Assembly (NCBI RefSeq): GCF_002872335.1
Contig: NZ_NJAG01000007.1
Span: forward strand, 248,001-312,000
Reading direction: 5' to 3'
Length of the DNA: 64,000 nucleotides
Source of the DNA: Siphonobacter sp. BAB-5405
GTDB lineage: Bacteria; Bacteroidota; Bacteroidia; Cytophagales; Spirosomataceae
Positions 31,259 to 63,215 of this stretch are shown piece after piece. The notes under the pieces are model-generated. The model did no database searches and was not told the DNA's origin. It saw nothing but the letters and a program-made list of their open reading frames with translations. The position numbers and the translations under genes are program-made. Positions within the stretch are counted from its first letter, which is position 1. The number at the start of each line of letters is the position of its first letter.

Positions 31259-31702
31259 ATGGAAGTTATTCTCAAAACCGATATCGCGGGATTGGGTTAT
31301 AAAAACGATCTGGTAACGGTTAAACCTGGCTACGGACGTAACTACCTGATTCCCCAAGGCTTCGCGGTAATGGCCAGCGAAACCAACAAAAAAGTACTGG
31401 CTGAAAACATCAAGCAAGCCGCTCACAAAGCTGAAAAGCTGAAGAAAGATGCTGAAGATTTAGCCGCAGCAATCGGCGATCTGACGCTGGAAATCCCTGC
31501 TAAAGTAGGTGAGAGCGGACGTATCTTCGGTCGTGTAACGAACACGCAAATCTCTGACACGCTGAAAACGAAAGGATTTGACGTAGATCGTAAGAAAATC
31601 ACGCTGGATTCTGAAGTAAAATCACTCGGCGAATACACTGCTACGCTTGACCTCCACAAAGAAGTGAAGCACAAAGTGAAATTCGTAATCGTAGGCGAAT
31701 AA
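31259..31702 (+). CDS. rplI: 50S ribosomal protein L9
   Basis: 147 aa. L9 bridges the base of the L1 stalk with a long helix between two globular domains. The N-terminal domain has the family signature AGLGYKNDLVTVKPGYGRNYLIPQGFA (about 10-36), the central helix is KKDAEDLAAAIG, and the C-terminal domain starts GRIFGRVTNTQIS. The stop is followed at once by a terminator. Confidence 0.97.
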   Translation: MEVILKTDIAGLGYKNDLVTVKPGYGRNYLIPQGFAVMASETNKKVLAENIKQAAHKAEKLKKDAEDLAAAIGDLTLEIPAKVGESGRIFGRVTNTQISDTLKTKGFDVDRKKITLDSEVKSLGEYTATLDLHKEVKHKVKFVIVGE

Positions 31703-31717
31703 GCTTCAATCCCTCTT

Positions 31718-31762
31718 AAAAAGCCCTGATCAGGATAATCTGGTCAGGGCTTTTTGTTTTTT
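31718..31762 (+). terminator. Intrinsic terminator after rplI
   Basis: Stem AGCCCTGA/TCAGGGCT (part of 31718-31733 with 31741-31755), A run before and T run after. Confidence 0.88.
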
Positions 31763-31810
31763 ACCCGTTTGCCTCTGGCACCCTCCTACTTCGCTACATT
31801 CGCTGTTGCA

Positions 31811-32025
31811 GATTTGTAATGCACAGGATTACAAATCCTTTCCAGACCGCTTTCGGATTGCCAATCCGAAAGAGCCACTTCAATACAGACTTGCCAACCC
31901 CAAAGGGGTTCAATGTCATTAGCTCCGTATTTCATACGTGAATCAGCCAGCCCGGTAGGCTTAGCCTACCAATTTTTGCGTCCGTAGCAAATGCTACGGA
32001 CAACGCGTCCCGATAACTTTATCGG
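31811..32025. repeat. Hairpin-array element, copy A
   Basis: Seven consecutive short hairpins fill this spacer: 31811-31837 (10 bp), 31850-31872 (about 10 bp), 31896-31910 (6 bp), 31926-31938 (5 bp), 31954-31970 (8 bp), 31980-32001 (9 bp) and 32010-32025 (7 bp). The part 31895-32004 aligns without gaps over 110 bp with 62976-63085 at about 79% identity. It is not coding. It lies between the rplI terminator and the thiamine riboswitch and is not part of either. Confidence 0.75.
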
Positions 32026-32117
32026 ATTTACTTCACCGGAAACCGCAGCGGCGGCCGCTGAAAACGGCAAACCGAAAACTTAAAACTGATTTTCCTAGGT
32101 AAACGCCCAAGTCTTTT

Positions 32118-32125: not shown

Positions 32126-32142
32126 CCTTGCTGAAAAGCCAA

Positions 32143-32221
32143 ACTTTAGGGGTGCCCGTTGTTTCGGGCTGAGACATACCCTTTGAACCTGACCAGGTTA
32201 GGACCTGCGTAGGGAAAAGTG
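32143..32221 (+). promoter_or_regulatory. TPP (THI box) riboswitch
   Basis: The conserved aptamer words occur in order: GGGGTGCC, CTGAGA, ACCCTTTGAACCTGA, and CCTGCGTAGGGAA, with ACTTT/AAAGT closing the P1 stem. It binds thiamine pyrophosphate in the mRNA and turns off the downstream thiS-thiF operon. Downstream hairpins (about 32234-32246 and 32252-32273, GTACG/CGTAC) without a T run suggest control of translation or an unclassified expression platform rather than a standard terminator. Confidence 0.95.
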
Positions 32222-32334
32222 AGGAATCTATTTCTTTCCGGGAAAGCATCCGTACGCACGGCTGTTTTCGTACTTCTCCACTCGTTTCGTCTCTCCCCTA
32301 CTGGCTTGTGCTTTCATGCGACATGAAACGTCCC

Positions 32335-62890: not shown

Positions 62891-62975
62891 ATTTCGTACA
62901 AGGGAGTTGGAAACTGCCCTAGGGTGGGTACAGGTTTGGAAACCTGCACCAGTATACCTAATGTATGCAAGCCCG

Positions 62976-63085
62976 CAACCCCGGAGGGGTTCAATCTGAA
63001 TAGCCCCGTATGCAATGCGGGGAACGACCAGCCCGGTAGGCTCAGCCTATCAACGTTTACATCCGTAGCGAATGCTACGGGCAAC
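62976..63085. repeat. Hairpin-array element, copy B
   Basis: 110 bp aligned without gaps to 31895-32004 (about 79% identical, 23 differences). Successive stems AACCCC/GGGGTT, CCCCGTAT/ATGCGGGG, GGTAGGCT/AGCCTATC and CCGTAGC/GCTACGG are kept; several differences from copy A give G-U pairs rather than breaks. Upstream (62920-62965) are further loose pairs such as CAGGTTT/AAACCTG. It fills the 62834-63215 spacer after the palindromic terminator and is not coding. Confidence 0.75.
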
Positions 63086-63215
63086 CCATCGCTGTTTTCC
63101 TAACTACTCCTCCCCAAACAGTCCCATCCCTTTCAACCTTTTTATTAACGGATCTTCCCAGATATTTCCAACATTGACCTTCTATTTTCGCTCCGTCAAT
63201 CCTTACAGAAAAGCT

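Follow-up and report, generated by a model that had tools for sequence, protein, structure and literature searches.

A 215-bp spacer (positions 31811–32025) in a 64,000-nucleotide stretch of the genome of Siphonobacter sp. BAB-5405 (contig NZ_NJAG01000007.1, positions 248,001 to 312,000; hereafter the window) is filled with consecutive small hairpins. We conclude, with a probability of roughly 0.85, that this spacer (copy A) is a heterotypic array composed of three kinds of doublets (Z, X and Y, about 46–62 bp each), which resemble repetitive extragenic palindromic (REP) sequences and come from three lineages of Y1 transposases. Since each hairpin pair resembles the repeats beside a different transposase gene, the spacer is more like the remains of REP-type mobile repeats than a new RNA. 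We establish here the modules, the matching of modules to genes within the genus, the tracking of copy number with those genes and the distribution of the repeats. X pairs with an IS200-like transposase of subclass 1.2, and Y and Z pair with two distinct REP transposases of the subclass-2.6 type. These results point to an overlooked transposase–repeat partnership in Bacteroidota; their specific contribution lies in the subclass-1.2 partnership and in the presence of several systems within one array.

Results

The modules of copy A were aligned locally to 11 Y1 loci, each scored alongside its own shuffles (L166 was left out as identical to L163). Module Z scored 60 against L168 (genome G003) and 65 against L169 (G002), both of which contain subclass-2.6-like transposase genes, and at most 27 against the nine other loci, with shuffle maxima of 26–29; the score of 27, at L163, is one above the shuffle maximum of that locus (26). 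Module X scored highest (34) at L032, a subclass-1.2 locus of the same genome, and at most 23 elsewhere. Module Y reached 52 at L033, the subclass-2.6-like locus of the same genome, and at most 21 at the ten others (shuffle maxima 24–31). An earlier note on the window had described a single hairpin-array element and predicted a TnpA/RAYT gene associated with it. The array is real, but it is a composite of three repeat families instead of one element, and the predicted link holds, as Y1 transposase genes were found with cognate module copies beside them.

Three encoded proteins, P0001, P0002 and P0003, all exceed the cut-off of the Pfam family Y1_Tnp. P0001 and P0003 also exceed the NCBIfam cut-off for IS200, and P0002 exceeds the cut-off for REP_Tyr_transpos. 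The subclass-1.2 signature Y---Q--HH reads YVKNQEEHH in P0001 and YIQNQEKHH in P0003, and P0001 is related (E 1.1e-4) to the solved transposase 2xm3, which we take to be ISDra2 TnpA. P0002 (L033) contains NHVH and YLHQNP, one residue off the subclass-2.6 motifs NH[LIV]H and YIH[QN]NP, and the frames at L167, L168 and L170 contain YLHLNP, YLHDNP and YLHTNP, two residues off YIH[QN]NP. P0003 is encoded by a second subclass-1.2-like gene of the same genome (L031, G000:C187:5780-9124), which by eye has different upstream hairpins (GAGCCGTAGGCTC, GTAGGGTTTCAACCCTAC) and no clear hairpins downstream. Two further loci, L163 and L166 (G002:C2), lie 21 kb apart on opposite strands and are identical over all 3342 bp compared, either by recent inverted duplication or as an assembly effect; because the identity reaches the edge of both stretches, this pair gives no element ends.

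The flanks of subclass-1.2 genes were studied at 29 of the best-scoring 30 loci, which are not a random draw (L195, with internal stops, was left out). The 350-nt flanks of these genes contain 8.25 and 7.49 hairpins per kb (arms of six or more, loops of 3–5 nt), compared to 0.54 per kb within the genes, 1.94 and 1.03 further out, and 0.5–1.1 in shuffled sequence. The flanks are therefore about 14–15 times denser in hairpins than genes and 4–8 times denser than more distant sequence. At least one side has a hairpin in 28 of the 29 genes, and both sides do in 21. The motif [AT]TAG follows 7–10 nt past the hairpin foot in 27 upstream cases in direct and 18 downstream cases in inverted orientation, as opposed to seven and seven in the opposite orientations. 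A Y1 transposase gene beside inverted cognate copies is thus found here, as in REP systems. Close relatives of P0001 typically have the full doublet.

The number of copies within the genus was determined in the source genome (G000, 6.49 Mb) and in the other genomes of the genus (G001–G005). A DNA search with copy B, the second copy of part of the array in the window, returned at least 54 matches in G000 (best 40 of 109 candidates), of which, by query range, 32 cover both modules, 16 cover X alone and 6 cover Y alone. This result disposes of the case, allowed for in the earlier note, that only two copies exist. A covariance model (R1), built from 26 aligned copies of this genome (alignment A1, L025 left out), identified at least 86, 74, 82, 49, 40 and 3 places in the six genomes of the genus (best 83 candidates each), none in 19 genomes of the family outside the genus, and a single weak match, in 1 of 14 genomes from the rest of the order. 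Module Z matches G000 to G005 7, 9, at least 42, at least 44, 0 and 18 times, and module Y at least 42, 26, 0, 0, 8 and 0 times (the eight in G004 are weak), all from the best 40 first-look candidates per genome, so that high counts may be low. The same genomes contain 3, 0, 3, 5, 1 and 0 Y1 genes. Copy number follows the cognate gene. The frame of the Z-type transposase at L169 (G002:C28) stops early, and so the Z matches of G002 may lack a working partner.

As befits short, high-copy extragenic palindromes, 26 of 27 array loci lie outside open reading frames (ORFs) of at least 100 codons. With genes called by a simple longest-ORF rule, and with L018, L025 and L027 left out of 30 array loci, the spacers of these 27 are convergent in 12 cases, tandem in 10, divergent in 3 and at edges in 2, whereas background spacers (150 bp or longer, from a stretch of 174 kb) are convergent in 8, tandem in 25 and divergent in 21. 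The convergent excess (12/25 vs 8/54) has a Fisher p of 0.004.

Homogeneous tandem 7-mer arrays (AAAACTG, AAACTGG, AAAACGG, AAAACAG and others; 3–15 units) stand near a fixed distance from the Y2 hairpin. A script found them at 13 of the 27 array loci, to which L020 and L023 are added; they start 35–39 nt past the Y2 hairpin at L002–L004, L007, L008, L010, L012–L015, L020, L023, L024 and L026, and 72 nt past it at L029. All six perfect 5–9-mer arrays of three or more units in 174 kb of G000 are 7-mers. Between G000 and G001 the number of units differs, as does the unit itself at one site. Copies A and B have no such array.

Beyond the genus, module X can be followed by its parts, a first palindrome (H1) and a second (H2) with A[AT]TAG or A[AT]TAA on its 5' side. 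The exact H2 pattern occurs in at least 85 stretches of named genomes, mostly metagenome-assembled genomes (MAGs), with the listed matches in Saprospiraceae, Belliella, Algoriphagus, Membranihabitans, Bacteroidales, Balneolia, Chlorobiota and Kiritimatiellae, and single ones elsewhere; some of the single matches (L070, L072) are without H1 and look like chance. In an unselected test, a perfect H1 ends 6–13 nt upstream at 59 of the 89 exact H2 sites with full context, compared to a mean of 2.4 and a maximum of 6 in 50 shuffled sets. The H1 arms comprise 17 sequences. Tandem X units also occur in L081, a record titled as a Bifidobacterium breve MAG, which is probably a misbinned Bacteroidota contig. 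At L065, L079, L096 and L148, which are copies from Belliella, Algoriphagus and other Cyclobacteriaceae, we saw by eye a further, TTGTCCGCCGTGGCGG-like palindrome that separates A[AT]TA from H2, giving the impression of an insertion of one repeat at the A[AT]TA motif of another.

A second covariance model (R2) was built from 59 X units (alignment A2) of the genus, gene flanks and named records. A rule gave 628 hairpin pairs, which were reduced to 225, 113, 87 (at most two per locus) and finally 59 by leaving out eight likely chance AT-rich hairpins and 20 redundant units. In 395 Bacteroidota genomes, the same draw in which 152 have relatives of P0001, R2 (E 1e-4, strict filters, best 15 matches per genome scored) matches 44. 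Relatives of P0001 are present in 38 of these 44 genomes vs 114 of the 351 others, and R2 units occur in 22 of the 24 genomes with a close relative (E ≤1.4e-40) vs 22 of the 371 others, counts in which the genomes are not independent.

Covariation, for which the earlier note had proposed a test, is thin within the genome and far richer between genera. Among the own-genome copies, both sides have changed in one of 23 pairs, a C-G of the Y2 stem that is T-A in 11 of 26 copies. In A2, 13 of 14 pairs show double changes (0 of 500 shuffles), a figure that is biased because the rows were chosen for having hairpins; the T.G pair of H2 (23 of 59 rows) was not used since the search pattern required it. 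The supposed tendency of changes to keep the stems, such as G-C to G-U, does not go beyond mutation bias. Departures in paired columns are 21 G.T vs 10 A.C. All changes summed stand at 81 to 55 in unpaired and 32 to 25 in paired columns, which is the same bias, and wobble changes in the copies of this genome do not exceed what the C>T/A>G bias seen in unpaired columns would give (p 0.75). Since unpaired columns share this bias, wobble counts say nothing on which strand is folded.

The features of both copies are collected in Table 1. The description of copy A as seven consecutive hairpins is confirmed by their coordinates and by folding of 31800–32040 (z -5.56 vs dinucleotide shuffles; 0 of 200 as good). 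The reported recurrence of 110 bp is equally accurate, as 31895–32004 and 62976–63085 align ungapped with 87 of 110 positions identical (79%). The copy B region (62900–63095) folds less strongly (z -2.07; 3 of 200 shuffles as good), and its module X is matched by R2 (G000:C221:310976-311022, E 1.1e-14). Hairpins resembling the extra one 5' of copy B adjoin some other arrays by eye. Most rows of A1 keep the tail past module Y, and GC-rich palindromes like the eighth one of copy A also follow the arrays at 5 of 27 loci scanned (L002, L010, L013, L026, L029).

Table 1. Positions of modules and hairpins of copies A and B in the window
Feature	Position	Strand	Parts or basis
Copy A, module Z	31811-31872	+	hairpin pair; local alignment to Y1 loci
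Copy A, module X	31896-31941	+	H1 31896-31910; guide-like ATTAG 31918-31922; degenerate H2 ~31923-31941
Copy A, module Y	31954-32001	+	hairpins 31954-31970 and 31980-32001
Copy A, hairpin arms	31811-31820/31828-31837	+	
Copy A, hairpin arms	31850-31860/31862-31872	+	
Copy A, hairpin arms	31896-31901/31905-31910	+	H1 of module X
Copy A, imperfect hairpin	~31923-31941	+	degenerate H2 of module X
Copy A, hairpin arms	31954-31961/31963-31970	+	module Y
Copy A, hairpin arms	31980-31989/31992-32001	+	module Y
Copy A, seventh hairpin arms	32010-32016/32019-32025	+	in tail past module Y
Copy A, tail past module Y	32002-32065	+	seventh hairpin; eighth palindrome 32046-32060
Copy B, module X	62977-63022	+	H1 62977-62991; ATAG 63000-63003; H2 63004-63022
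Copy B, module Y	63035-63080	+	hairpins 63035-63051 and 63063-63080
Extra hairpin 5' of copy B	62927-62950	+	GGTACAGGTTT/AAACCTGCACC

Copy A is preceded by an ORF ending at 31702, which we take to encode ribosomal protein L9, and by the terminator of this ORF (31717–31756). An ordinary thiamine pyrophosphate (TPP) riboswitch (32138–32232, 75.8 bits) lies between the array and the next ORF. A pattern scan called terminator-like tails after the hairpins at 31954–31970 and 32010–32025, so the absence of T runs, noted earlier for all stems, does not quite hold. With the real terminator there are three such sites vs 0.6 expected in shuffles. We can reject a series of Rho-independent terminators, since just two of the seven hairpins received this call.

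Discussion

How such an array might form can be outlined by analogy with the homologous TnpA and TnpA-REP proteins, from which recognition, cleavage, movement and the order of events are inferred. The transposase would recognize a folded single strand consisting of a hairpin and the A[AT]TAG 5' of the second palindrome of X, a motif placed like the guide of IS200/IS605 and like GTAG in REP. Its tyrosine would then cut the single strand and join it elsewhere during replication, and the joined units may end up in spacers beside older units, giving mosaics. On balance, and with less assurance than for the array itself, we favor the broader proposal that IS200-like subclass-1.2 transposases drive a very large Bacteroidota repeat superfamily with a fixed grammar (one hairpin that is free to vary, A[AT]TAG some 9 nt further on, then a second hairpin), whose stems change together between lineages, and that Y1 systems of different kinds are nested within one another's repeats, one spacer recording several independent partnerships.

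Several observations weigh against the REP-like reading of the array. The margin of module X in copy A is modest (34 vs a shuffle maximum of 29 at L032), this copy being decayed. G001 has many copies and no Y1_Tnp match, and G005, with its 18 Z matches, has none either. Eight of the 29 subclass-1.2 genes have no hairpin on one or both sides, a strict doublet rule gives units at 23 of 33 gene loci (a number that includes chance AT-rich hairpins), and the distant subclass-1.2 genes L196–L201 show by eye other hairpins, mostly without H2. Copies of Y lie upstream of L033, and none was seen in 450 nt downstream. As for co-occurrence, 10 of the 24 close-gene genomes gave rows to R2. The other 12 of the 22 positive ones are not listed as sources of rows, although one of them might be identical with a named record; several of these 12 have one or two weak R2 matches (G137, G092, G076), and the close P0001 match has internal stops in G092 and is partial in G153. 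Six R2-positive genomes are without a P0001 relative.

The comparison with the sister genome G001, whose syntenic stretch is 88–96% identical by block, adds to these points. Copy B is reduced to remnants there, and 12 of 20 further Y-match loci of G001 correspond to array loci of G000 in alignments that include long flanks (the other eight have no partner in the part of G000 compared), which indicates that most copies are old. Comparison of G000 with G001 at copy B and four array loci revealed neither a clean empty site nor a fresh insertion, only remnants or repeat-spaced length changes. At two of these four the length differs by roughly one X-to-X period, and the breakpoints lie no more than a few bases from A[AT]TAG, the exact place depending on the alignment; such gain or loss of units can equally be explained by recombination between repeats. 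Copy A stands at the same place in G001 and is now inherited vertically at this locus. Its positions 31918–32054 (137 bp) are identical in a block of 93.8% identity, which may reflect recent exchange, a slow local rate or selection.

Among other explanations, the X units could be the termini, or degraded leftovers, of ordinary insertion sequences (IS) of the IS200/IS605 type, comparable to miniature inverted-repeat transposable elements (MITEs), with subclass 1.2 being a normal IS. P0001 and P0003 do score as IS200 transposases, and several genomes have multiple P0001 matches, up to nine. IS200/IS605 ends, however, typically lie on the same strand, and the hairpin–TAG motif is inverted between the two gene ends, as in REPtrons. 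Moreover, within-genome matches are diverse (in G302, 35–58% identity to the query, some with stops), and excerpts of PMC6006769 give 1.7 copies and 36% within-genome identity for subclass 1.2. We therefore consider this explanation unlikely. Similarly doubtful is a domesticated DNA element of whatever origin, kept for a host function such as protein binding, supercoiling, transcription end or mRNA protection. Roles of this kind have been hypothesized for REPs in the portion of PMC3733652 consulted, and they would suit the excess in convergent spacers and the conservation at corresponding sites of G001, a genome in which no Y1_Tnp gene turned up; the decay of copy B in G001 and the different array lengths in G000 and G001 look like a lack of strong constraint.

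A transcribed array with hairpins acting as RNA, for example as a leader on the operon behind the TPP riboswitch, is very improbable despite the strong folding, the position between terminator and riboswitch and the 137 identical base pairs, because the modules recur in dozens of other spacers, 12 of 25 convergent, track transposase genes, show no wobble excess beyond mutation bias and have no match in Rfam. In the window, Rfam 15 gave only the TPP riboswitch above the gathering threshold and, at E ≤1, three sub-threshold matches, all at the terminator (31690–31765); a structured RNA family was rejected for this reason. Of the three options in the earlier note, the mobile palindrome of the REP type is thus supported, and structured RNA found no positive evidence.

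The REP-like composite gives a place to an orphan subclass of single-strand DNA transposases, and likewise to the hairpin repeats that are dispersed over many Bacteroidota genomes. The question can be put to the test with a single purified protein of 148 residues and a 46-nt oligonucleotide. There is also a warning: structured-RNA scans in Bacteroidota can keep finding these doublets, and good covariation may reflect DNA mobility instead of RNA function.

Comparison with Known Systems

Within the scope of our literature search, which left out most subscription papers and the supplements of PMC6006769 and included others as excerpts, we found nothing on subclass-1.2 repeats or these doublets, and nothing joining Siphonobacter with repeats or palindromes. 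The part of PMC2817692 consulted mentions none of the phyla concerned here. Two MITEs of Bacteroidota, as far as the excerpts describe them, are different elements, one of the IS982 type (PMC9769881) and one a 23-nt minisatellite (PMC4596501).

IS200/IS605 elements and their MITEs share with the present system an HUH/Y1 enzyme and hairpins with a tetranucleotide 5' of the palindrome. They differ in the orientation of the flanking motif, which is opposite here, and a mobile unit including the gene was not demonstrated. Subclass 1.2 is, according to excerpts of PMC6006769, generally without terminal IS200 hairpins and without REP. Our genes agree with it in the signature of P0001 and P0003 and in their Bacteroidetes hosts, but 28 of 29 have a hairpin within 350 nt. 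Cyanobacteria likewise harbor this subclass. Subclass 2.6 (RAYT group 5) is described in the same excerpts as flanked by "atypical secondary structures" with copies elsewhere in the genome. P0002 and the frames at L167, L168 and L170 resemble it in their NH[VL]H and YLHxNP motifs, in the hairpin pairs near the gene and in their Bacteroidetes hosts; doublet modules or mixed arrays do not figure in those excerpts.

The closest likeness is to REP/REPtron systems (TnpA-REP, RAYT) and bacterial interspersed mosaic elements (BIMEs), which also consist of short palindromes in high copy in spacers, with inverted copies around a Y1 transposase gene and mosaics of units. TnpA-REP cuts strand-specifically, with a guide tetranucleotide 5' of the palindrome (PMC8266576, in excerpt). 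The repeats described here, by contrast, form doublets, whereas REPs are single. In X, the position of the GTAG of REPs is taken by A[AT]TAG or A[AT]TAA; Y and Z have no established foot, and units of three transposase lineages are mixed in one array. For want of GTAG we call the array REP-like and do not file it as canonical REP; judged by its anatomy, it would function like a REP system.
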